Shown piece by piece: positions 11,005-23,681 of a stretch of 28,796 nt of DNA. The DNA comes from a virus. Location: the IMG/VR virus record IMGVR_UViG_3300025127_000186, positions 1-28,796 of that record. The stretch is one strand, 5' to 3'. The translations under genes were made by a program, and so were the position numbers. How positions within the stretch are numbered: the first letter of the stretch is position 1; each line of letters begins with the position of its first letter. The notes under the pieces were generated by a model. The model saw only the letters and a program-made list of their open reading frames with translations. It was not told the origin of the DNA and ran no database searches.

Positions 11005-11168
11005 TAATTTATAAATAAGTTAAACGCTTCAATTTCATCTTTCAATTCTTCTTGAAACGTTGAGTTTAATTTTTCAACAATAGCATCAAGATCTCTTACT
11101 TGAGCTTCTGCTGTTTGTACATCATAGTCGCTTGATGGTCTAGTTATTACCTGTACGATTTTTGCCAT
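11004..11168 (-). CDS. Small helical protein, 54 residues
   Basis: Found by direct translation: ATG at 11168-11166 and TAA at 11006-11004, each sharing TAATG with the adjoining gene. It reads MAKIVQVITRPSSDYDVQTA at the start, then a negatively charged helix (AQVRDLDAIVEKLNSTFQEE) with a heptad pattern. No membrane segment. It lies directly downstream of the gp10-like tail protein, where a small assembly partner or chaperone would be plausible. Function unknown. Confidence 0.65.
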   Translation of the reverse strand: MAKIVQVITRPSSDYDVQTAEAQVRDLDAIVEKLNSTFQEELKDEIEAFNLFIN

Positions 11169-13348
11169 TATCTACGTCCATCTGGTTGTACATCTAATCT
11201 AAAAGTTCCTAGTTTCCAACTTTGAGCAGAAGATGTGTTTTCTACTTTTAATGCAACAGCTCTTGCTCTTGCACGTGTATCTACTTTTTTAGTAGATGAT
11301 GAAACAGTAAATGGTCCAAGAGCAGAACTAGTTTGACTATCGTTTGGAAAGTCTCTTAATAAAAATGTAATTTGTGTGTTACCAGTTTGTGATATGAAAT
11401 CTGGTATAAATCTTCTTATCTTCATTATAAACTCACCGTCTCCTTTAAATGTTGCGACACCTGTTTGTGTTCCTTGAGCCGACCTTGCTTGTGTAATATC
11501 AAAATCTCCTGATGATATATTTGCAGTTATTGCAGTTGTAGCACCGCCTTGCACTTGATCTGTTCCTGTTTCGTGTTGATAGTATATTGTTCTACCTTCT
11601 GTATTGCCTACAACGTCAAAAGATGTATCTGTGGCTGCTTCATATGAAGTAGCATGTGGGCTACCAAATACAGCTGAATCTTCCCACATTGTTCTAGCTA
11701 GTGAACCCACAGTCCACACTGGTCTTTTTGGTGATGAATCAAAATAATTATAACAGACCATTCTATTTACAACTGATGATCCTGTTGTTGGATAAAACCA
11801 CATAACCTCACCAAATAAATTATTTAATCCTGCTGATACCATTTGATTACCAGATTCTAAATTTATATTATCATATACAAAATCTTCTACTAAGCATGGT
11901 AATGATTCTAATTTACCAGCGTATCTAAAGAAACCATTCTCTGACATCCAATATGCAGCACCATCTACTTCTACACATGCATTCTGTCCAACAAGTCCAC
12001 AGTTAGTTCCAACTTGTGCAAACGCAAAGGTAAAAGGTTGACCAACAAAACGTTGTGTAAATAAAGCTGTATCAGTCCAAACATAAATTGCATCTCTACC
12101 TCTAATGGCTCCTCTAATCTGTGATCCGTCGGCCAGTCTTTGTGTACCAGCTGTATTAGTTGCTGTTGGCACATATGTATTTATATCTTCTTGATCTGAG
12201 AATCTTACAAACATATCATCTTGTGTAGATGTATCTCCAATAGTTGTTTCTGTTCCAAAAAACACTAAGTGACGATCCGGTGTAGATACTAACATGTGTC
12301 TTGATGCAGTAGGCGCACCAGATATAATAGTTGCTCTCGTAGATTCTGCATTTGCTGCAGCAGAGTTCCATTCAAAAACAGCACTGTCATGAATTAAACA
12401 AATTGCTTTATCACCAAAATTATCTAATGACCACATACCAGGTTCTAATACTAAGTCACCTGACGCTGCCTCGCCCCATGCCACAAAGTTTGTTGTGCTT
12501 GTAACGGTTGCTCCACCACTATGTGCAGCTTTTGTTGTACCTCTAACTTCTCTAGTAACACCTGTAAGTTCATTACCTGATATACCTGTATAAGATATTT
12601 CTTCATTATCTATTTTTATGAAGTTTGTACCTGAACTTGGAAACTGAGATACATCACCTAATATAATACCTGTTGTTACAGCATCGTTAATACCATTTGT
12701 TAATGTTGTTGTAGGCTCACCTGCTACTTCACCACCCCATGATCCAAGTGACCAACCAAAACCTTTTGCTTGCACTGCTGGTCCTACTGGATAATAATGT
12801 TGTACTCTAATACCACCTGATGTTGTTGCACCAGATCCAGATTCATTACCCGGCATTGTAATAGTAATAGTTGTGCTCGATGGTACAGATGTTACCATAA
12901 ATTTTTTATCATCAAAATCAGCTGAACCATAATTAGAATTAGTTATAGTGCTAAAATTATCTAATAAAATTATATCATTTTCATTTATATTATGAGACGT
13001 ACTAAAAGTTATAGTAACAATGTTTGATCCGTTAGTTGTGCTAAACGCGTTTGTAAGAGTTGTTGTAGATTTAATTGGATGTATGTCATAAAACACACCA
13101 CCTGAGTATGCATATAAAATTCTATTTGTGCCTATGATTGCGTATTTTCTAGCTTTACTATTTACAAAATGATGAAGTCCTCTACCTGCACCTGTAAGAG
13201 CATCATCTCCTAATTGTTTCCAACCACCTATTTTTTCTGGTGTGCCATACCTAAAACGAACATTATCACAATCAATCCATTGACCTTCTGCGGTTGTTGG
13301 TGTGACTTGTTTATTGATCCCAGGTTGAAACCCTATTTTTTGTAGCAT
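11168..13348 (-). CDS. P22 gp10-like packaged-DNA stabilisation / tail hub protein
   Basis: 726 residues. The N-terminus (FQPGINKQVTPTTAEGQW, then DNVRFRYGTPEKIGGWKQ) is the hallmark of the Phage_stabilise family, to which P22 gp10 belongs. That protein joins the head-tail connector to the tail needle and retains packaged DNA. At 726 residues it is much longer than P22 gp10 (about 470). The extra length seems to come from two Thr/Ser-rich beta modules at about 95-180 (NIVTITFSTSHNINENDII to GSGATTSGG) and 207-285 (FPSSGTNFIKIDNEEISYTG and onward). The latter is a small domain common in marine phage tail proteins. A Shine-Dalgarno-like GAGG precedes the ATG. It follows the oxygenase genes after 14 bases and is probably on the same transcript. 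Confidence 0.85.
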   Translation of the reverse strand: MLQKIGFQPGINKQVTPTTAEGQWIDCDNVRFRYGTPEKIGGWKQLGDDALTGAGRGLHHFVNSKARKYAIIGTNRILYAYSGGVFYDIHPIKSTTTLTNAFSTTNGSNIVTITFSTSHNINENDIILLDNFSTITNSNYGSADFDDKKFMVTSVPSSTTITITMPGNESGSGATTSGGIRVQHYYPVGPAVQAKGFGWSLGSWGGEVAGEPTTTLTNGINDAVTTGIILGDVSQFPSSGTNFIKIDNEEISYTGISGNELTGVTREVRGTTKAAHSGGATVTSTTNFVAWGEAASGDLVLEPGMWSLDNFGDKAICLIHDSAVFEWNSAAANAESTRATIISGAPTASRHMLVSTPDRHLVFFGTETTIGDTSTQDDMFVRFSDQEDINTYVPTATNTAGTQRLADGSQIRGAIRGRDAIYVWTDTALFTQRFVGQPFTFAFAQVGTNCGLVGQNACVEVDGAAYWMSENGFFRYAGKLESLPCLVEDFVYDNINLESGNQMVSAGLNNLFGEVMWFYPTTGSSVVNRMVCYNYFDSSPKRPVWTVGSLARTMWEDSAVFGSPHATSYEAATDTSFDVVGNTEGRTIYYQHETGTDQVQGGATTAITANISSGDFDITQARSAQGTQTGVATFKGDGEFIMKIRRFIPDFISQTGNTQITFLLRDFPNDSQTSSALGPFTVSSSTKKVDTRARARAVALKVENTSSAQSWKLGTFRLDVQPDGRR

Positions 13349-13362
13349 ATAACCTCATTTTA

Positions 13363-14010
13363 TTACATGTTCCTAATTGGTGGAACACCTAACATTGGCC
13401 TTTTGTCGAACCTATTCTTTTCAGCAAAAGGACCATTTACATGGTTATAATGAAGAAAGACCTGTCCACAGACATCCCCTTCAAAAGGTTCTCTCCAATG
13501 CTCTAATTCACAACCACTATATACTAGCATATCGCCTACATCAAGCAAGACTTTCGTGCCTTTGGGTGCATTGGGTTTATGTATGTTCTTATACTCATCT
13601 ATGACGCTGTCAGCCCCTGTACCGTCGATAAATATAGGCCAAGGATCTCCACCTAAGTTTAATGTAGTAGATATCTCGCAAGAGGGTCTATCTTTGTGTC
13701 TTTTTAATTCATCTCCTTTTTTATATATTCTAGCATATGAATACGTAGGCACTAAATTTAGTCCTGTTTCTTTAGCCATGACTGGTAACATCTTTACTAA
13801 CAATGTTTCCATAGCAAAATCTGCATAATGAGAATAAGTATTTGGTATTTGTTTATCGGTCCATGTACCAAGCATACCATTATCATATGTAATATTATTT
13901 TGATACATCCAAGCCACTGCATCTCTTTTAAGTAAGAAATAGTTAAATATAAAGTTAGCTAATTCATAACTAACTGCACCTTTGATTACTTGATATTTAT
14001 TGAAAGCCAT
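13363..14010 (-). CDS. 2-oxoglutarate/Fe(II)-dependent oxygenase (HxD...H type)
   Basis: 215 residues. The jelly-roll dioxygenase signature is visible: SYARIYKKGDELKRHKDRPS with ligands H105 and D107, a beta run (ISTTLNLGGDPWPIFIDG), GDMLVYSGCELEHWREPF with distal ligand H171 and nearby R173, then VFLHYNHV. The family uses 2-oxoglutarate and oxygen to hydroxylate protein side chains or small molecules. The substrate is unknown. The usual Arg or Lys about ten residues after the distal His is Q183 here, so the co-substrate salt bridge may be made by R173 instead. It is the last of four consecutive oxygenase-like genes, overlapping the previous one by 14 bases. Confidence 0.85.
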   Translation of the reverse strand: MAFNKYQVIKGAVSYELANFIFNYFLLKRDAVAWMYQNNITYDNGMLGTWTDKQIPNTYSHYADFAMETLLVKMLPVMAKETGLNLVPTYSYARIYKKGDELKRHKDRPSCEISTTLNLGGDPWPIFIDGTGADSVIDEYKNIHKPNAPKGTKVLLDVGDMLVYSGCELEHWREPFEGDVCGQVFLHYNHVNGPFAEKNRFDKRPMLGVPPIRNM

Positions 14011-14578
14011 GTTGTATAAAATTAAAACTTACTGATATTCTTATATCATTTGATTCATTAGGTTCAACATTGTGCCAAAGATAATATGGAAATATAATTA
14101 TTCTACCTTCAACAGGTTGTAAATGTACTTCTCTCCATAAATGTTTCGGTGGTTTACCTTTTTTTCTTGTTGGCATATTTAATTGTGCTCCTGCTCGTGG
14201 TTCATTACAAACCAAGTCGCCAGAATTTTCTGTTGCTTTTACATAATACACACCACTAAATAAACTATTAGGGTGCATGTGTGGAGCATTATATCCACCT
14301 GGTGGATTTATGTTAGCCCACATATTACCTAATACAGGTTCTCTATCTAACCACTCTTCTTGCCATATGTCATTCATCATTACAAATAATTCATTTACCA
14401 AAGGTTGGAATACAGGCATCTTGTGCATTTCTGTTGTAGAGTGCCAACCGTTACGGTTTGTTTTTTTAACTCCAGGATCTCTTTTTGACCACATAACAAT
14501 TTCGTTAGCAAATAATTGATTATCTAATTTTACATCTTTGCCATATATAGTTGTTGGAAAAAATTGTTCTTTAATCAT
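13997..14578 (-). CDS. 2OG-Fe(II) oxygenase-like protein (HxH variant)
   Basis: 193 residues. It carries the pattern GGYNAPHMHPNSLFSGVYYV (H100, H102), GRIIIFPYYLWHNVEPN (H169) and R180 in DIRISVSFNF. This is the pattern of the putative 2OG-Fe(II) oxygenase family Pfam 2OG-FeII_Oxy_5 (PF13759), in which the HxD of classic enzymes appears as HxH. Upstream residues GWHSTTEMHKMP are also typical. R180 is well placed to bind 2-oxoglutarate. Whether the HxH site binds iron catalytically is not established from sequence. The ATG overlaps the stop of the 14575-15168 gene as ATGA, so translation is coupled. Confidence 0.85.
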   Translation of the reverse strand: MIKEQFFPTTIYGKDVKLDNQLFANEIVMWSKRDPGVKKTNRNGWHSTTEMHKMPVFQPLVNELFVMMNDIWQEEWLDREPVLGNMWANINPPGGYNAPHMHPNSLFSGVYYVKATENSGDLVCNEPRAGAQLNMPTRKKGKPPKHLWREVHLQPVEGRIIIFPYYLWHNVEPNESNDIRISVSFNFIQHGFQ

Positions 14579-15168
14579 CTAAATGGTTTACCTCCAAACC
14601 AAACAACAAGTGATTGTCTTACTCCTCTTTTCACAGGATTAACTCTATGATTTAAAAAAGACGCAAACATTATAGCATGACCTTGTTTAAGTTCTGCAAA
14701 CTTACCTGGTGCCATTAGTTCTAAATCTCCACCTTCAAACTCTGATGGATCATTTAATAACAATGTCATAGATATTTTTCGAACTGGTGGTTCGTGTTGC
14801 ATGTTTACATCGCAATCCATATGCCAGTCATAGAACCCTCCTTCTGGATACTCTGTAAACTGTGCGTTCTCTGTAACTTGTATGTCTCCAAACCCAAAAT
14901 GATTTTCGTTTGTTTTTTGTATAAAGTTATTGAGATCACGATACATGTGTTCCATTTCTTTAAATGGTATCCAACTAATCGTTGTAACTCTTTTCTTTGT
15001 ATCTGTTCCCCCACCTGGTTTACCCATACCCACTTGTGCTTGTTTTGGTGGTTGTCTTCTTCCTGCCTCTATAATCTGTCTACACTGATCAGGTGTAAAC
15101 AATGGTGTAGTTGTTTGCACAATCCAACTTTTCCATTTAGGTTCTGTGATGTGTCTATTTTCGTACAT
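14575..15168 (-). CDS. Prolyl-4-hydroxylase / PKHD-type 2OG-Fe(II) oxygenase
   Basis: 197 residues and the most canonical of the four: FTEYPEGGFYDWHMDCDV with ligands H116 and D118, a beta strand KISMTLLLNDPSEFEGGDLE typical of P4H enzymes, GHAIMFASFLNHRVNPVKRG with distal ligand H174, and R184 in the 2OG-binding position. The N-terminal part (TPDQCRQIIEAG) is the usual helix of this family, and ISWIPFK corresponds to the segment before the core. Bacterial relatives include PiuC/YbiX-like hydroxylases, and phages often carry them. It probably hydroxylates a protein or nucleotide substrate; which is unknown. Its start shares TAATG with the preceding gene. Confidence 0.9.
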   Translation of the reverse strand: MYENRHITEPKWKSWIVQTTTPLFTPDQCRQIIEAGRRQPPKQAQVGMGKPGGGTDTKKRVTTISWIPFKEMEHMYRDLNNFIQKTNENHFGFGDIQVTENAQFTEYPEGGFYDWHMDCDVNMQHEPPVRKISMTLLLNDPSEFEGGDLELMAPGKFAELKQGHAIMFASFLNHRVNPVKRGVRQSLVVWFGGKPFR

Positions 15169-15836
15169 TAACTTACTCCTCTATTTCTTATCGGGTTATA
15201 ATCAACATCCATATTTGCAGCTAAAGTTCTTCTCCATCCTGGTCCATTAAATGGATACACACAGTGTCTCATATCATATGGAAATATAAAAAAATCTCTT
15301 TCTTTTACATCAGGTTGATAATCAACATTTGCAAACATACCATTAGTTGATCCTAATATTTGTAATCTACCGTTTTGTGGTGAATCTGCTGCTGAGTATT
15401 CAACACCATAAGATTCTGGTAATTTTAAAATCATAACACTAGATAATCCTGTAAATAACATCCCTTGATGCACGTGCACTGGATTGTATTCATTTTCAAA
15501 CATAGTATTAACCCATACAGAATTTAAATGCATTTTATATTGTTTTACTTTGTTCCACTCTAAATAATGTTGAAATCTTGATTCAAACCATCCTAGTACA
15601 TTATTAGGTAAATGATTATGTCTAGTCATTTTATCTGTATCTTCACCATCATAAAATAAACTATGTTCTTTTTCTATTTTACCAACTAACTGTTTATTAG
15701 CAGATTTTAGTTTAGGATATTTTGTTTCATAAATATGGTTAATTATATTATACACATCAAGAGGCACTTGATACCTTAATACTGATTGACCTAAAAATAT
15801 AAAATTAAAATTACTCTGGCTTGGATCCAAGGTCAT
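15168..15836 (-). CDS. 2OG-Fe(II) oxygenase-like protein, divergent HxH variant
   Basis: 222 residues. The pattern matches that of the 13997-14578 protein: NEYNPVHVHQGMLFTGLSSV (H121, H123), FFIFPYDMRHCVYPFNG (H191) and R203 in WRRTLAANMD. The SGVYYV strand is replaced by TGLSSVMIL, and extra sequence between the two halves (SPQNGRLQILGSTNGMF) makes it more divergent. It is likely paralogous to that gene. The ATG at 15836 lies 26 bases inside the preceding gene and lacks a clear Shine-Dalgarno, so expression probably depends on coupling. Catalytic activity is less sure than for the P4H-like neighbour. Confidence 0.75.
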   Translation of the reverse strand: MTLDPSQSNFNFIFLGQSVLRYQVPLDVYNIINHIYETKYPKLKSANKQLVGKIEKEHSLFYDGEDTDKMTRHNHLPNNVLGWFESRFQHYLEWNKVKQYKMHLNSVWVNTMFENEYNPVHVHQGMLFTGLSSVMILKLPESYGVEYSAADSPQNGRLQILGSTNGMFANVDYQPDVKERDFFIFPYDMRHCVYPFNGPGWRRTLAANMDVDYNPIRNRGVS

Positions 15837-16491
15837 GTGCTAATTGTTCTTTCTTGTTATAAATCATTTCTCCTGATTTTTTAACTCTTTCTATAGTTTT
15901 TAACTGACCCAACACATTAAATATTTCTGGCTGTGAAGAACCCGATGATAATGTCTCTGCTTTGTTTTTCATAATGTGATGGTAAGATTCTAATTGGTGT
16001 CTGTTAACATCTTGAGTATCAAACGACCCATCGTCAAACTCTTTTTTAAGTTGTGACCATAGTTTAATTTCTCTCATACGATCTCTTGCGACTAACTGCA
16101 TATTAGCTAAACCGTATCTAGCTTCATCAAGATCTATTTGATATTTTGTTAATTTGTATTCGTCTTTTTCTGTCTCAATCTTTTTCTCTAACCATTTAAC
16201 TTTAGCCTCTGATCTTCTACAATCAAATGATAAACTCATTAAGTTTTCTAAAAATACATTTTGTTCTCTAACACACTGCCAATACTTTGCAGCTTTTGTT
16301 GGATATTTCATATCTTGTAGAACAGACATTCTCATTTCTGTCTCTGTTCTAAATACTTGTTTCTTGGTCCATGTGTCTCGGAGCTCGGCTGTCATAGCCT
16401 TAAACTCTTTTACATCTTCTGGATCTAATAAATTATTTAGGCTAGGTGCCTCTTTTTCAATTAACGCATGTATATTTCTTTTCTCTGTCAT
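15811..16491 (-). CDS. Helical coiled-coil protein of unknown function
   Basis: 226 residues, almost all charged alpha helix: KVKWLEKKIETEKDEYKLTK at about 123-142 and the region 90-190 have heptad character, with two possible helical hairpins. No enzymatic motif. Similar long helical proteins occur beside 2OG oxygenases in marine myo- and podophages as far as I recall, always of unknown role. It is the first gene after the promoter-like site at 16511-16538 and has a good AGGAAA Shine-Dalgarno. Its 3' end overlaps the first oxygenase by 26 bases. Location suggests an operon leader that could act as a scaffold, substrate or assembly partner for the oxygenases. Confidence 0.8.
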   Translation of the reverse strand: MTEKRNIHALIEKEAPSLNNLLDPEDVKEFKAMTAELRDTWTKKQVFRTETEMRMSVLQDMKYPTKAAKYWQCVREQNVFLENLMSLSFDCRRSEAKVKWLEKKIETEKDEYKLTKYQIDLDEARYGLANMQLVARDRMREIKLWSQLKKEFDDGSFDTQDVNRHQLESYHHIMKNKAETLSSGSSQPEIFNVLGQLKTIERVKKSGEMIYNKKEQLAHDLGSKPE

Positions 16492-16510: not shown

Positions 16511-16538
16511 AATATATACTTTATTAACTAGTTGTCAA
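16511..16538 (-). promoter_or_regulatory. Sigma70-like promoter of the oxygenase operon
   Basis: Minus strand TTGACA (16538-16533), 16-base spacer, TATATT (16516-16511). It straddles the stop codon of the last kelch gene and lies in the 32-base gap before the 15811-16491 gene. Predicted start near 16504, giving a leader of about 13 bases that just includes the AGGAAA Shine-Dalgarno. The same -35 and -10 hexamers are used at 1110-1138. Confidence 0.65.
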
Positions 16539-18434
16539 TGTTGAAGCTGTAACTGCTGTTGTTTCTGCTGTTAGTTCCTCAGCATTAGCAGTATAATTAG
16601 GGTTATTATTTACAGGTGGTCCAGCTGATTGACCTGTCATGACCAAACCTGATGTTTGTCCACCATCAGACCCATGTCCTCTTCTTCCTGAACCCATGCT
16701 TGCTGTTGTTGCAGTTGCAGTTCCATCATAATTTGAACAAGTTGTTATTCCTGCTGCAGGAGGATTTACATTTCCACCTGTTATTAGTGTTGCAGTCTGT
16801 GGACCTCTAGCTCCAGCTTCTATTTCAGTTACTCCAATTACAGCGCTTCCACCTGAAGTCCAAGATGAACCATCGTATTCTTCAATAGTTGTAACTCTAG
16901 AACCATAAGGAGCTGACTGTCCACTTATTAATGTTCCTGCAGTTTGTGTTCCAGAGCATCCTCCACCATGTCTATCTGCTGATGGACTTCCACCTGCTGC
17001 CCAATTTGTTCCATCATATTCTAAAGATCCTCCTGGAAAAGCATCAGAACCTGTTGGAGGTGATTGTGATACAATACCTGCAATAAGTCCTGCAGTTTGA
17101 ACACCTGTTCCTGAACCTACTAAAACTATAGGAGCATTGGTTACACTTGTCCAAGAAGAACCATCGTATTCTTCTGTCGCGTTTAATTTTGGAGGTGTTT
17201 GTCCTCCTGTACACCACGCGGCAGTGGTTGTTCCACCACCACTTCTGTTTCTTGCTGCAGTGTTTAAATTTGGTGCAACCGTAAAACTTGTTCCATCATA
17301 TGTATCTGATTTATTACTTGTGTAAGGTCCTGATGGTGGTGGACCTGTTCTACCACCCCAAACCATTGCTGCAGTTTGTGAACCCTCAGATGTGCTTCCA
17401 ACATTTGTTCTTACTGTAGAAATGCTTCCTCCAGCTGCCCATGCTGCTGCAGTGACTGTATTAACTGAAAAATTTAATTCCTCTGTATCACTAGTAATTG
17501 AAGGGTTTTCTCCACCAAAAACTACGGCTGTATTTTGAATACCTCCAGCTCCTCCAGAACTTCTTGCAGCTGCTAGTGTTGCAGGTTGAGTAGTCCAACT
17601 TGTACCATCATAATATTCTGTTGCATTTGATTTTCCTGGTGTTGCTGTTCCACCACATATCCAAGAATTAGATTCTGTAGTTCCTCCAGATTGAGTGTAA
17701 CCAGTTCTTGCTGTGTTAATATCATTTCCCTCTGAAAAAGAAGTACCATTATATTCTTCTGAATTTGCTAATCTATTTGATCCATCAAAACCACCTGAAA
17801 TAATACCTGCAGTTTGAACTCCACCACCTGAATGTGCTCTTCTAGCAGTATTTACTGCGTTGGTAGCTGTCCAAGAAGTTCCATTATATTCTTCAGCTGT
17901 AGAAGTATTTGCTGCTGGATTTGGTGGTCTTCCATATCCACTTGCTTGCACTGCAGCTGTTTGTGTTCCAAATACTGCATGAATACCTAGTGGTCCTTGA
18001 GCTAAACTACCTCCTGATGTCCAACTTGATCCATTATATTCGTTTGTAACATCTGTGTATGCAGGACCTGGTGTTTTATTTCCTCCACAAACTAATCCTG
18101 CTGTTTCTGTTCCACATCCAACATTATGGTATATTGATAAAGGATAGTTTGTTGATGAAGTCCATCCTGTTCCATTATATTCTTCAGTTTTATTTGAAAA
18201 AGGGGGCTCATCCCCTCCAACTGCCACTGCAGCTGTTTGAGTTCCAAAACCTGCTAAACTTTTTCTAGCAGTAGCTAAAGGAGAGCTACTAGACCATGCT
18301 TGAAAAGAAACAACAGATTTTAAAACACCTGTAGATTTGTCGTACCAAACCTGTCCCTCATAACTAGATTCTAGTGTGGGGTCAGAGTCAAAATCTTTTA
18401 CTCTCTTACCATATATTTCTTCGTAAGTTGCCAT
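16524..18434 (-). CDS. Kelch-like twin beta-propeller tail fibre protein, paralogue 3
   Basis: 636 residues. An N-terminal anchor of about 45 residues (MATYEEIYGKRVKDFDSDPT, then GQVWYDKSTG) precedes twelve kelch-like units of about 45-50 residues. Each unit reads roughly (T)EEYDGTSWT..., NTAR..., GTQTA..., GG, with the Gly-Gly and Trp of kelch repeats. The unit at 317-336 (FSVNTVTAAAWAAGG) reproduces a C-terminal closing half joined to an N-terminal opening half. The protein therefore reads as two six-bladed propellers, each closed by its own terminal strand; the second closes with the last 20 residues. Variation is greatest in the loops after GG. Likely a receptor-binding fibre or appendage protein; cell-wall glycan is one plausible ligand. 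This is the most divergent of the three copies. No strong Shine-Dalgarno is seen before the ATG. Confidence 0.85.
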   Translation of the reverse strand: MATYEEIYGKRVKDFDSDPTLESSYEGQVWYDKSTGVLKSVVSFQAWSSSSPLATARKSLAGFGTQTAAVAVGGDEPPFSNKTEEYNGTGWTSSTNYPLSIYHNVGCGTETAGLVCGGNKTPGPAYTDVTNEYNGSSWTSGGSLAQGPLGIHAVFGTQTAAVQASGYGRPPNPAANTSTAEEYNGTSWTATNAVNTARRAHSGGGVQTAGIISGGFDGSNRLANSEEYNGTSFSEGNDINTARTGYTQSGGTTESNSWICGGTATPGKSNATEYYDGTSWTTQPATLAAARSSGGAGGIQNTAVVFGGENPSITSDTEELNFSVNTVTAAAWAAGGSISTVRTNVGSTSEGSQTAAMVWGGRTGPPPSGPYTSNKSDTYDGTSFTVAPNLNTAARNRSGGGTTTAAWCTGGQTPPKLNATEEYDGSSWTSVTNAPIVLVGSGTGVQTAGLIAGIVSQSPPTGSDAFPGGSLEYDGTNWAAGGSPSADRHGGGCSGTQTAGTLISGQSAPYGSRVTTIEEYDGSSWTSGGSAVIGVTEIEAGARGPQTATLITGGNVNPPAAGITTCSNYDGTATATTASMGSGRRGHGSDGGQTSGLVMTGQSAGPPVNNNPNYTANAEELTAETTAVTASTLTTS

Positions 18435-18445
18435 TTAAAATATTC

Positions 18446-18745
18446 TTATGGCAATATTACATCAACTGGTCTTGTATTCATCGGATTAGCTGGTGCTTTT
18501 TCTTCATCAGGCAAAGCATCCCACGCAGCTTGATTCGCTTGTATTTCAGCGTCAATCAAAGCTTGTGCTTCTGCTTTTGTCTGTTCACGAGCTCCTTTTT
18601 CAGCTAACCACATAGCGCCATCAACGGTGTTACCAACCATCCAGACGTTTGCAGGATAACCTCTAAGGAAGAATTTTCTTCTGTCTTCTGCAGTAAAAAA
18701 TCCTTTGCCAGTGTTTTCAGCTACTCCATATATAAAGTGTGCCAT
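18446..18745 (-). CDS. Small protein between fibre genes, possible fibre assembly protein
   Basis: 99 residues with a strong AGGAGG Shine-Dalgarno. The N-terminal half is a compact domain (YGVAENTGKGFFTAEDRRKF, then FLRGYPANVWMVGNTVDGAM). The rest is an alanine-rich helix (AEAQALIDAEIQANQAAWDA) and a Pro-rich tail ending RPVDVILP. The helix plus tail resembles C-terminal parts of small tail-fibre assembly proteins of the Tfa type, and location between two kelch fibre genes supports that. Similarity is not strong enough to name it. It interrupts an otherwise contiguous array of three paralogues and is read together with the downstream kelch gene (gap of 11 bases). Confidence 0.7.
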   Translation of the reverse strand: MAHFIYGVAENTGKGFFTAEDRRKFFLRGYPANVWMVGNTVDGAMWLAEKGAREQTKAEAQALIDAEIQANQAAWDALPDEEKAPANPMNTRPVDVILP

Positions 18746-18781
18746 AGTTTAGTCCTCCTTTTTAAGTTTGTTTATCATAGA

Positions 18782-20605
18782 TTAACTCTGAGTTAAAGTC
18801 TTAACATTAACTGATGTTGTTTCACCAGTAAATTCTTCTGTTACTGTTTGATACGCTGCGGGTGTTTCACCACCAAAAGCTAAACAAGCTGTTCCTGGTG
18901 AGGCACTTCCAACTGCAGTTCTTGCAGTTGCTAGACTTGGCCTTGTAGACCATGAGGTTCCATCATATCCTTCAGTTGCTCCTGAAAATGATTCACCTGG
19001 ATCAATTATACCTGCAAAAACTAATGCGGCTGTGGTAGTTCCTGCGCCACCTGGTCTATTTCTTCTTGCGTTCGCTAAACTTGGAGCAGATGTCCAAGAA
19101 GAGCCATTGTAAGATTCAACAATAGACTGTGTTCCAGGAGCAGGGTATGCCTGTCCAGCAGCTGCTAAACTTGCTGTTTGAGTTCCAAAACCTGCTAATC
19201 CTAATCTTGATTGAGATAATGCACCACCAGCTGTCCAATTAGTTCCGTCCCATTCCTCAGTAGCATCTAAAGATGCAAAAGGAGAAGAATCTAATTGTCC
19301 ACCAAAAACTAACGCTGCAGGTTGAGTTCCCGATCCTGCAGTTCCTTTTCTTGCAGTATTCATACTATTAACACTAGTCCAACTTGATCCATTCCAAGAT
19401 TCTGTAGTGTTTGGACTACCAAAAGCAAGAGCTGCTGTTGATATTCCTGCCCCACTTAATTGAGTTCTAGCAGTATTAAGTGAAGGAGTTGCTGTCCAGT
19501 TTGATCCATCGTATTCATAAGATGAAGAGACAGTTCCGCTGGCTGTTCCTCCAAAACCAAGGGCTGCTGTTTGTGTTCCTGCATCTCCTAAAAAACTTGT
19601 TCCTGTTGGCAGAGCACCACCACTAGCCCATGCTGCACCTGTAATGACGTTTGCTGATTTGTTATATTCTTCTGTTAAATTTCTAATTGAAGATGGACCA
19701 TACCCTCCAGCTACCATCCAAGTTGAAGATGTACCAGAGGTTGCTGGAGACACATCATATCTTGCAGTTGCTAATGTTGCTGGCGAAGTAGTCCATGAGG
19801 TTCCGTCCCATTCTTCGGTAGCATCTTTATCAGGAGATCTTCCAGCTACAATTATTGCAGATGTTTGAGTTCCTGCTGCTCCTACTCCTTGTCTTGCTGT
19901 ATTTATATTTGGACCTTCTGTCCAAGAAGTGCCATCATATTGTTCTGCTTTAGCAGAATTAGATCCTGTAGTTCCACCTGCTAATATAGTAGCAGTTTGA
20001 GTTCCTGCCGATCCACCAGTAGATCTTGCAGTGTTTAAATTATTTCCTTCTGACCAAGATGAACCATTATACTCCTCTGAGTCAGCTGAATAAGGAGGCT
20101 CAACATAACCACCAGCAACTAAAGCGGCAGTTGTTGTGCCTGATCCCATATTGTTCACGCTTCGTCTTGCTGTGTTAAGAGCAGGAATTGCAGTCCAACT
20201 TGATCCATCATAAATATATGCTTCAGCTGTGTTGGCTGTTTCATACCCACCAGCTGAAAATGCAGCTGTTTGAGTTCCTGCCGCTGCTAGAGATCTTGTA
20301 GCAGTTGGTAACGCTCCACCTGTAGCCCAACCTGATCCATTATATTCTTCGACTGCAGTTGTTCTAACATCACCTGGTCCAATATTACCACCTATACATA
20401 ATCCAGCAGTTTGAATTCCAGCTCCTCCCGCACCATATCGAGCGGTAGCTAAAGGTGAACTACTTGACCATGCTGCAAGAGCAACAACACTTTTAAAAGT
20501 ATCACTAGTTGTGTTGTACCAAACTTGACCTTCAGCAACTGATTCTGTTGGATCAGTTGTTACTGCCTGAATTGATCGTCCATGTATTCTTCTATATGTT
20601 GTCAT
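18782..20605 (-). CDS. Kelch-like twin beta-propeller tail fibre protein, paralogue 2
   Basis: 607 residues. Same plan as its two neighbours: anchor (MTTYRRIHGRSIQAVTTDPT, then EGQVWYNTTSDTFK), opening half-blade AWSSSSPLATARYG, five full units, a junction at 311-330 (EEYNKSANVITGAAWASGG) that closes one propeller and opens the next, five more units, and a closing half-blade TEEFTGETTSVNV at the C-terminus. That gives 6 + 6 blades. Blade consensus: EEYDGTSWT-x(3)-LNTAR-x(7)-GTQTAAL-x(3)-GG. It starts two bases after the stop of the upstream paralogue with only a weak GAG, so it probably depends on translational coupling. Presumed virion-surface adhesin. Kelch units are otherwise associated with protein and glycan binding. 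Confidence 0.87.
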   Translation of the reverse strand: MTTYRRIHGRSIQAVTTDPTESVAEGQVWYNTTSDTFKSVVALAAWSSSSPLATARYGAGGAGIQTAGLCIGGNIGPGDVRTTAVEEYNGSGWATGGALPTATRSLAAAGTQTAAFSAGGYETANTAEAYIYDGSSWTAIPALNTARRSVNNMGSGTTTAALVAGGYVEPPYSADSEEYNGSSWSEGNNLNTARSTGGSAGTQTATILAGGTTGSNSAKAEQYDGTSWTEGPNINTARQGVGAAGTQTSAIIVAGRSPDKDATEEWDGTSWTTSPATLATARYDVSPATSGTSSTWMVAGGYGPSSIRNLTEEYNKSANVITGAAWASGGALPTGTSFLGDAGTQTAALGFGGTASGTVSSSYEYDGSNWTATPSLNTARTQLSGAGISTAALAFGSPNTTESWNGSSWTSVNSMNTARKGTAGSGTQPAALVFGGQLDSSPFASLDATEEWDGTNWTAGGALSQSRLGLAGFGTQTASLAAAGQAYPAPGTQSIVESYNGSSWTSAPSLANARRNRPGGAGTTTAALVFAGIIDPGESFSGATEGYDGTSWSTRPSLATARTAVGSASPGTACLAFGGETPAAYQTVTEEFTGETTSVNVKTLTQS

Positions 20606-20607
20606 AA

Positions 20608-22473
20608 TTAACTCGTTGTAAAATCTGCTATATTAGCTGTTTCTGTTTCTCCTGTAAATTCTTCTGTTGCATTAGATGTAGCAGTACCTGTATATCCTCC
20701 AGCAGCCAATCCAGCTCCTTGTGTAGATGTAGTTGCATTTGCAGAACTTAATGAGTTTCTAGCTGTACTCATACTTGGTCTTGTTGACCAGTTTGTTCCA
20801 TCATACCCACTTGTTACAGCTGTTCTAGTTCCAGGTCCTAATACTCCACCAAAAAATAATCCAGATGTTAAAATACCTGCCGTTCCTCCCCAAGCCGTTG
20901 CTTGAGGTATTGCATTTACACTTGTCCAATTAGTTCCATCATATTCTTCTACAGCTGTTGAGTAACTTGGAGTAGAACCTCCTACTGTAACAGAGGCAGT
21001 TTGTGTTCCAAAATTTCTATTTCCTCTTCTACTTGTATTTAAATTATTACCGTTAGTCCAAGAAGTGCCATCATATTCTTCTGTAGAATTTTTTGGTGTG
21101 CTAGGCGGGCTAGTGGCTCCTCCACATATAAGACCTGATGTCAAAATTCCAGAACCACCATGAGATTCTCGACCAGTATTCATTGTACCTCCAGAAGTCC
21201 AAGAGGAACCATCGTATTCATAAGATGTTGATTGTGTGGCTCCTGGACTAGGACTTGCAACACCTCCAGAAGCTACATTTGCAGTCTGTGTTCCAAAAGA
21301 ACCCATTTGTGTTCTAGCTGCTGGTAAAGCTCCTCCAGATGACCAAGAAGAACCATCATACTCATTTGTTGCTGTATTAGTTGTTATAGGAGGTGAAGCA
21401 GCACTATCTCCTCCTGTTGATATAGAGGCTGTTTGAATTCCCCCACCCGTGTTATTATATACAGCTGCTGGTAAATTTCCACCAGCTGCCCATGCTGCAG
21501 CGGTTATTGTGTTTATTGATTTATTAAATTCTTCTGTTTTAGCAGAAAGACTAGGTTCATATCCGCCATAAAATACACCTGCACTTGTTGTTCCAGTTCC
21601 TCTTATACCATATCTTGCAGTGGCTAAAGTTGCAGGAGATGTAGTCCAAGAAGTACCATCCCATTGTTCTGCAGCCGAATTTGCAGTTGTTGGTGGTTGA
21701 GTAGCTCCGCCTGCAACAAATGCAGAACTTGAACTAATTCCAGATGATCCAGAATTATTTCTTCCAGTATTTAAATTTGATGTTTCACTCCAAGATGTTC
21801 CATCATAAACTTCCGTGTCTGTTGGATTATCAGTAGGTCCAGTTCTGCCTCCAAAAATAATTCCAGCTGTTTGAGGACCTGTGCCTCCCATATTTTGTCT
21901 AGCTGTATTTATACTATTACCTACAGTCCAAGAAGAACCATCGTATTCTGCTGATACATTTGTAACAGCAGGAGCTGGAGTTCTACCTCCACAAGCCAAT
22001 CCAGCTGTTTGGGTTCCCATACCAGCTACACTATGAAATGTTCCTGGATAAGCCCCACCAGATGTCCAAGAAGAACCATCATATTCTTCTGTGTTATTTT
22101 TATTTGGAAACTGACCTGCTGCAACATATGCTGCAGTTTGAGTTCCTCCACCTGCAGCACTCATTCTTGCAGTTGACATGGTTCCACCTGAAGACCAACC
22201 TGATCCATTATATTCCTCTGTAATACCCGTTACTGAAGGTGCAGCGTCTTGACCACCTGCAGCTAAAGCAGCTGTTTGTGTTCCTGCTTGTGCGGAACCA
22301 GTTTCTCCTCTAACAGTGCTTAGTGAAGAACTACTAGAAAATGCTTCAATAATACCTAAACCTCTAAGCTTACCATCAGTGGAGTTATACCACATCTGAC
22401 CTGTTTTTGGTTCACCAGGGTTAGAAGTTACTTTAGTAATCTTCTGCCCTATTAGATCTTTATAAGCAGCCAT
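20608..22473 (-). CDS. Kelch-like twin beta-propeller tail fibre protein, paralogue 1
   Basis: 621 residues. It is the first of the three paralogues to be transcribed and has a strong AAGGAG Shine-Dalgarno. Anchor 1-42 (MAAYKDLIGQKITKVTSNPG, then TGQMWYNSTDGKLRG). The opening half-blade FSSSSSLSTVRG is followed by five units, the junction EEFNKSINTITAAAWAAGG (about 315-332), five units, and the closing half TEEFTGETETANI. Loops vary in length and are rich in Pro, Thr, Ser and Gly (for example SPPSTPKN), as expected of exposed propeller loops. DNA encoding the conserved blade core is nearly identical in many units across all three genes, giving many short stretches for recombination. Predicted receptor-binding fibre. 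Confidence 0.87.
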   Translation of the reverse strand: MAAYKDLIGQKITKVTSNPGEPKTGQMWYNSTDGKLRGLGIIEAFSSSSSLSTVRGETGSAQAGTQTAALAAGGQDAAPSVTGITEEYNGSGWSSGGTMSTARMSAAGGGTQTAAYVAAGQFPNKNNTEEYDGSSWTSGGAYPGTFHSVAGMGTQTAGLACGGRTPAPAVTNVSAEYDGSSWTVGNSINTARQNMGGTGPQTAGIIFGGRTGPTDNPTDTEVYDGTSWSETSNLNTGRNNSGSSGISSSSAFVAGGATQPPTTANSAAEQWDGTSWTTSPATLATARYGIRGTGTTSAGVFYGGYEPSLSAKTEEFNKSINTITAAAWAAGGNLPAAVYNNTGGGIQTASISTGGDSAASPPITTNTATNEYDGSSWSSGGALPAARTQMGSFGTQTANVASGGVASPSPGATQSTSYEYDGSSWTSGGTMNTGRESHGGSGILTSGLICGGATSPPSTPKNSTEEYDGTSWTNGNNLNTSRRGNRNFGTQTASVTVGGSTPSYSTAVEEYDGTNWTSVNAIPQATAWGGTAGILTSGLFFGGVLGPGTRTAVTSGYDGTNWSTRPSMSTARNSLSSANATTSTQGAGLAAGGYTGTATSNATEEFTGETETANIADFTTS

Positions 22474-22481
22474 GTATCTCC

Positions 22482-23681
22482 TTAATTATTCTTTAAGAGC
22501 CAACCTTGTGTGCTATCTACATAAACTAAAGTATTCGCTGCTCTTTCTGTTGATACTGTTAAAGGATCTGTTGATCCTGCAATTTTTTCTGAACCGTTTT
22601 GATCGATTGTTAATGCGTTAGTATCAAATGTTCCTGCATAATCTATAAAGGAAACTTCATCTCCAATATTACCTGCAGGTAAATCCATTTCTATTGCACC
22701 AGCTGTTGTATTAATAAAATAACCTTCACCAGCTACTGCTGTAAATGTAGAAGTTTTTACTGCTTGCCATGATGTACCACCTGATACTTCAGCAAAAGAT
22801 AATTGACCAACACCCGTTGCACCTGAACCAGTAACACTAGCTACTTTTAAAAATCTATCTGCTGTTACATTTCCCGTTGGAAATTTTAGTGTGTAGCTCT
22901 GTCCAGAGCTATGTGGAGGTGATTGAAGTTTAATACCGTGTGAATTAGATTCACAATTAAGAACAATGGTACCTGGGTTTGTTGCACCCATAACTTCTAT
23001 TTCACCAGTTCCTTTTGGTCTTAATTTTAAATTAATATTTGAATCATCTCCAACTGCACCTATTTGAGGTCCTGAACCTGTTGCAGCATTTGTTACATCA
23101 ATATGGTTTACTGCAGAGCCAGTTGTTTCAAAAATTAATTGTTCATTTCCATTTTCATCTCTAAGACCATGAGCATCATCAAAGTCTATCATAAAAGAAT
23201 TAGTATCTAAGTTACCACCTAATTGTGGTGAAGTATCGTCAACAACATCAGCTCCTAAAGTAACCTCTGTAATATTTGGATTAGTTCCGTCATCTGCTCT
23301 TGCATAAGCAATAACTGTTTTTCCGTTTGCTATAGTAACACTAGTTCCTGTGCCAGTGTCATATTTAAATACTACGTTTTGAGAACCAGATGTTGCATTT
23401 TTTAAAATATAAAAATTTTGAACATCTAAAGGTATTGTAACATTTCTTGATCCTGTAAGAGACCCTGTAAATTCTATAACTCTGTGTGCAAGAGTTGCAC
23501 CAGTTGATCCATCACTAACAGAAAGGTCTGTATCTGCACCATCAGTTACAGCTTGTTGTGTAAAACCACCAGCTATCTGCTCAATGATTTGTAAATTAGT
23601 ATTAGTTTTTGTTCCCCATGTACCGGCATTTTCACCAGTTGCTTGAAGTTCAACACCAAGAGGCGTATATGTTGAGGCCAT
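22482..23681 (-). CDS. Tail fibre protein (marine phage type)
   Basis: 399 residues. The N-terminus MASTYTPLGVELQATGENAG, TWGTKTNTNLQIIEQ is a start that I recognise from many marine phage tail fibres. It presumably docks the fibre to the tail. The middle is repetitive beta structure (FTGSLTGSRNVTIPLDVQNF, then a GSQNVVFKYDTGTG module). The C-terminal ~90 residues (EMDLPAGNIGDEVSFIDYAG to LVYVDSTQGWLLKNN) form a beta module that also occurs in the 27767-28321 protein. AGGAG stands nine bases before the ATG. It lies directly upstream of the kelch array, so all four gene products may form one appendage system. Trimeric fibre assembly is inference. Confidence 0.85.
   Translation of the reverse strand: MASTYTPLGVELQATGENAGTWGTKTNTNLQIIEQIAGGFTQQAVTDGADTDLSVSDGSTGATLAHRVIEFTGSLTGSRNVTIPLDVQNFYILKNATSGSQNVVFKYDTGTGTSVTIANGKTVIAYARADDGTNPNITEVTLGADVVDDTSPQLGGNLDTNSFMIDFDDAHGLRDENGNEQLIFETTGSAVNHIDVTNAATGSGPQIGAVGDDSNINLKLRPKGTGEIEVMGATNPGTIVLNCESNSHGIKLQSPPHSSGQSYTLKFPTGNVTADRFLKVASVTGSGATGVGQLSFAEVSGGTSWQAVKTSTFTAVAGEGYFINTTAGAIEMDLPAGNIGDEVSFIDYAGTFDTNALTIDQNGSEKIAGSTDPLTVSTERAANTLVYVDSTQGWLLKNN

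Follow-up and report, generated by a model that had tools for sequence, protein, structure and literature searches.

Twin kelch-propeller proteins of marine phages exchange whole propellers, and their loop proline content follows prolyl-hydroxylase-like genes

Related uncultured marine phages carry three tandem genes for kelch propeller proteins, K1, K2 and K3, close to a cassette of 2OG-Fe(II) oxygenase genes, and we find that the proline content of the propeller loops tracks the presence of two of these enzymes, OX2 and OX4. Our best reading, to which we assign a probability of about 0.55, is that the trio forms an array of adhesins which swap propellers and whose proline-rich tips phage enzymes hydroxylate. 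The kelch trio had been noticed in an earlier prediction from the DNA letters; the oxygenase cassette and its link to loop proline are a new finding, absent from that prediction.

The window analysed here is the whole 28,796-base IMG/VR virus fragment IMGVR_UViG_3300025127_000186 (positions 1 to 28,796). At 44-49% identity, its stabilisation-like protein matches proteins of 023Pt_psg01 and of the pelagiphages HTVC027P and HTVC023P, other matches carrying the annotation stabilization protein, which places the window among the relatives of the HTVC023P-type podoviruses (see PMC9599517). The gene order fibre, K1, K2, 99-aa gene, K3, 226-aa gene, oxygenases, stabilisation protein (Table 1) is conserved on viral contigs, the four oxygenase genes lying between the 226-aa gene and the stabilisation protein. 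The location of the kelch trio in a tail module, as originally predicted, is thus borne out by the neighbouring genes and their conserved order.

Table 1. Features of the kelch-oxygenase module in the window
Feature	Position	Strand	Basis
Upstream tail-fibre-like protein, T4 gp9/10-like domain	22482..23681	-	PF07880 2.6e-5, slightly under score cut-off; phrog_967/958 tail
K1, twin six-bladed kelch propeller protein, 621 aa	20608..22473	-	12 blade matches; phrog_27227 E 6e-91
K2, twin six-bladed kelch propeller protein, 607 aa	18782..20605	-	AlphaFold2 pLDDT 93.6, pTM 0.87
K2 first propeller, ~residues 46-318	19652..20470	-	Blade matches and VIA-align
K2 second propeller and C-terminal end, ~residues 324-607	18785..19636	-	Blade matches and VIA-align
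99-aa gene between K2 and K3, same place in relatives	18446..18745	-	Gene order
K3, twin kelch propeller protein, 636 aa	16524..18434	-	12 blade matches, last weak (E 9e-4); phrog_27227 E 3e-80
226-aa gene	15811..16491	-	Beside kelch genes in almost every lineage examined; weak phrog_1409
OX1, 2OG-Fe(II) oxygenase	15168..15836	-	PF13759
OX2, prolyl-hydroxylase-like 2OG-Fe(II) oxygenase	14575..15168	-	PF13640; profile matches
OX3, 2OG-Fe(II) oxygenase	13997..14578	-	PF13759/TIGR02466
OX4, 'ferrochelatase' PHROG 2954; predicted prolyl-hydroxylase-like oxygenase	13363..14010	-	HxD..H, model, Foldseek
Packaged-DNA stabilisation-like virion protein, right-hand boundary of the module	11168..13348	-	44-49% identical phage proteins

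Several accessory genes accompany this module. Even very distant viruses (L136, L201, L225) have a relative of the 226-aa gene beside kelch genes, and this gene is a candidate dedicated assembly chaperone, a role for which our search found no solved relative; for the 99-aa gene, family profile searches returned no family above cut-off. In many relatives, a sulfotransferase, an APS-kinase-like and an HxGH nucleotidyltransferase gene share one cassette ahead of the oxygenases (e.g. L029, 14818-16356). This cassette, absent from the window, possibly serves sulfation of a tail protein or of a host glycan; no pattern between sulfotransferase and loop tyrosine was visible by eye in the table of 68 loci. 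Kelch trios also occur on contigs that look like T4-like myoviruses, beside the sulfotransferase cassette in L132 (8003-12608) and beside OX2 in L145 (684-6789). A tblastn search of the K proteins against annotated phage genomes gave nothing useful and identified no isolate with the array there.

Each K protein is almost certainly composed of a short anchor and two six-bladed kelch propellers. K2 and K3 are 48 and 39% identical to K1, respectively, and the three proteins, which share one common plan, all match phrog_27227 (E 3e-80 to 1e-114). With an HMM of the blade, trained on relatives that have a single propeller, we detected 12 units in each of them (E 4e-17 to 9e-4); the 46-position blade profile, with conserved G27 G28, Y42 and W1, corresponds to the ~50-residue kelch repeat. 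Against solved structures, the family profile matches SAKe6FR (3e-20) and KLHL3 (4e-15), and Pfam Kelch_4 reaches E 0.036 in one protein, under the cut-off, such short single-repeat models having little power here. In the AlphaFold2 model of K2, built with 100 homologues as input, residues 47-325 and 328-596 form two separate kelch propellers, each a closed ring of six four-stranded blades, which VIA-align matches to the NS1-BP kelch domain with Z of 32.4 and 32.0, respectively. Note that the structure model covers K2, the reading of K1 and K3 resting on alignment and blade matches. The plan itself, an opening strand first and a matching closing half-blade last, implies that each ring would be closed by its own ends. 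The architecture that had been read from the letters is therefore correct: the ORFs and their 12 blade matches each confirm three adjacent paralogues of one plan, the modelled boundaries fit an anchor of ~45 residues and a junction around residues 311-336, and the K2 model has two separately closed propellers per chain. A search with the anchor for known tail fibres gave one weak hit, to a protein annotated as tail fiber (E 0.06).

The number of blades in the wider family points to the propeller as the evolutionary unit. Among 460 non-redundant relatives, we detected 5-6 blades in 192, 9-12 in 266, 18 in one and 30 in one, a quantisation at 6 and 12 that is not expected by chance. Many relatives are single-propeller proteins of ~300-350 aa, and it is these, together with the 18- and 30-blade members, that identify the unit. 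The 30 detected kelch blades belong to a 1904-aa protein of a virus that looks unrelated (L201, 8915-14629).

We then compared propellers between loci. Among 162 twelve-blade proteins, we found 23 mosaic pairs, partly non-independent as some have sequences in common, and of the 23 sharp breakpoints 22 fall after blade 6. The exchange is same-slot in 12 pairs and cross-slot in nine, two being unassigned. For instance, K3 of L039 is a chimaera whose first half resembles K2 of L046 and whose second half resembles K1 of L073. Likewise, the window's K2 has a first propeller close to that of K1 in L005/L006 (~76-91% identity per blade), its second propeller being just 31-49% identical per blade. At the level of whole genes, the locus pairs L019/L027 and L028/L218 combine near-identical downstream genes (93-99% identity) with strongly divergent K proteins (45-59%), and in L011/L012 the replacement is confined to a single slot. 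Recombination of whole propellers is thus very probable, and overall these data show that the propeller is the unit of duplication, loss and recombination within and between the three slots. The array had been expected to be recombination-prone, which holds for whole genes and propellers, across slots too, but not at the scale of the blade: per-blade comparison across relatives revealed no shuffled blades. Such natural swaps show a route by which phages can alter their binding proteins with the fold kept intact.

Variability within blades is concentrated at positions 12-14 and 29-38, where entropy is maximal; in the alignment with KLHL3, these are the residues directly after Arg and directly after Gly-Gly, respectively. 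KEAP1 contacts its partners through residues at these places, the KEAP1-type ligand face. Diversity had been predicted in the loops after the Gly-Gly, where a hypervariable zone is indeed present, but another variable zone directly follows the conserved Arg. For blade pairs at least 80% identical, the sample to which these ratios apply, dN/dS is 0.45-0.57 in loops versus 0.24 in the core. Positive selection in the loops, which had been put forward as a test, is not seen, as loop values exceed those of the core yet all remain below 1.

These features make it likely that K1-K3 are a tandem array of tail adhesins. As for receptor-binding proteins, they reside in a tail module and are hypervariable relative to conserved flanks. 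The K proteins would be virion components that bind receptors on the cell surface, several of them perhaps at once as first suggested, and a propeller swap would change specificity without breaking the fold. Kelch propellers occur as enzymes and scaffolds too, and the adhesin role and receptor are putative, so that the K proteins might instead be surface decorations, or virion enzymes or shields, hypervariable for another cause and not primary receptor-binding proteins. We consider this improbable, since the K slot is also the slot of other tandem tail proteins, the variability is located on the presumed kelch ligand face, and replacement of a single slot is typical for host-range genes. Somewhat less remote, albeit still unlikely, is that the three paralogues serve as separate, fixed components of a single hetero-oligomeric fibre and not as near-equivalent independent adhesins. 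Strong conservation of the copy number of three and of the order K1-K2-small gene-K3 favours such a fibre, as do the single-propeller forms, frequent at slot 1 (34/78) and rare at slots 2 and 3. However, slot-specific propeller interfaces are disfavoured by the cross-slot exchange and by nearest relatives often coming from a different slot. This alternative concerns assembly and can hold together with the adhesin reading.

Both OX2 and OX4 display the 2OG oxygenase fold with an HxD..H iron site, as judged by profile and alignment for the former and by model and alignment for the latter. In OX2, the motif HxD..H..R is invariant, and profiles match the PKHD hydroxylase PiuC (1e-14) and prolyl 4-hydroxylase (9e-11). 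In OX4, HxD..H is invariant, and the model (pLDDT 88.7) has a P. putida prolyl-4-hydroxylase as top Foldseek match (1e-8) and matches several 2OG oxygenases, PHD2 and SnoN among them, with VIA Z of 14-16; a fold in common with prolyl hydroxylases does not prove the reaction of OX4. No ferrochelatase match was found for OX4 in Pfam or NCBIfam, nor among the structure matches listed. We predict that phage proteins labelled 'ferrochelatase' (PHROG 2954/3531) are prolyl-hydroxylase-type 2OG-Fe(II) oxygenases, and this label is probably wrong across marine phages.

Loop proline separates loci according to these two genes. In the first 68 complete loci, which include overlapping copies of identical contigs (trees were built from distinct sequences only), 14 lack OX2/OX4 and show 2.0-3.3%, whereas the 54 that carry OX2, L016 among them lacking OX4 on its contig, show 8.6-17.8%, with no overlap. 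Per protein, the minimum with the enzymes is 6.3% (n=148) and the maximum without them 4.8% (n=38). In the pairs listed at 57-67% identity, the difference always has the same direction, and seven controls (six flanking proteins and the anchor) display no comparable one. With the prediction fixed beforehand, 55 new loci gave 6.1-18.2% in the 51 with OX2/OX4 and 1.4, 2.1, 4.9 and 6.9% in the four without, the last, intermediate value being that of L205, an exception in which recognised OX2/OX4 are absent. Over 108 distinct loci (high, at least 6%; low, at most 5%), 96 have enzymes and high proline, none enzymes and low, one high without enzymes and 11 low without enzymes (Fisher p 3e-14, uncorrected for ancestry). 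L110/L111 have proline-rich loops on short contigs without oxygenase. On the gene tree, low proline arises in four state changes and absence of the enzymes in five, which is too few for a formal sign test; the correlation is strong, with few independent events behind it.

This covariation of loop proline and genes suggests that OX2 and OX4 hydroxylate loop prolines, for which we see about even odds. They would act during infection, and hydroxylation could stiffen the binding tips or supply hydroxyl contacts. The proline values of L205 and L110/L111 speak against this scheme, as does the presence of OX1 and OX3 in phages alongside OX2/OX4. The chances are similarly balanced that marine phages modify their own recombining receptor-binding propeller loops by dedicated prolyl hydroxylases. 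Less probable, though a serious contender, is that the K proteins are swapping adhesins but OX2/OX4 target host metabolism, DNA or RNA, or other proteins, low-proline propellers and absent OX2/OX4 both marking the same few lineages. The small number of state changes fits this, as do published interpretations in which 2OG oxygenases of phages count among auxiliary metabolic genes (PMC9599517, PMC3037559); moreover, low-proline propellers are more uniform overall, at many repeat positions, and given this uniformity lineage composition may contribute to the difference. On the other hand, the state shifts at separate points on the tree of the 226-aa gene, which lies between K3 and the oxygenases, the difference is limited to propeller loops and consistent in the pairs at 57-67% identity, and the genes lost are the prolyl-hydroxylase-like pair, OX1 and OX3 being usually retained.

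Hydroxylation of the adhesin tips by OX2/OX4 would bear on a broader question. Many 2OG-Fe(II) oxygenases with unproven metabolic or regulatory explanations are encoded by marine phages, SAR11 and picocyanobacterial phages among them (PMC3037559, PMC9599517), and a survey finds that viral prolyl 4-hydroxylase use remains cryptic (PMC9301287). The tight tie to adhesin-loop proline offers a testable substrate and, if true, a function for part of these widespread, unexplained enzymes.

In fold and blade plan, the K proteins resemble the kelch domains of KEAP1/KLHL and NS1-BP and the designed SAKe6, with Z of 32.4 to 5yy8 and 32.0 to 6n3h for K2. Unlike these, they are viral, have two propellers per chain after a short phage anchor, contain no BTB domain and fall under Pfam cut-offs. 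The 617-residue architecture of phrog_27227 is the same, and this family, functionless in PHROGs, thereby gains a fold and a probable role. OX2 resembles the prolyl 4-hydroxylases of P. putida and PBCV-1 (cited in PMC9301287) by profile and OX4 by predicted fold, with the iron-binding HxD..H conserved in both; in contrast to those enzymes, OX2/OX4 are genetically tied to phage tail propellers, their putative substrate. Oxygenase clusters also adjoin tail or tail-fibre genes, or unannotated genes, in the pelagiphages HTVC033P, HTVC008M and Mosig. The layout is also similar in HTVC023P and 023Pt_psg01, whose K slot holds three or four tandem paralogous Gly-rich (PF21722) tail proteins with Pro-Pro motifs, followed by OX2, OX3 and OX4; none of the complete Gly-rich loci is without OX2, so that they provide no contrast for an independent proline test. 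In these phages, the 226-aa partner gene was not found, and a glycine-rich domain takes the place of the kelch propellers.
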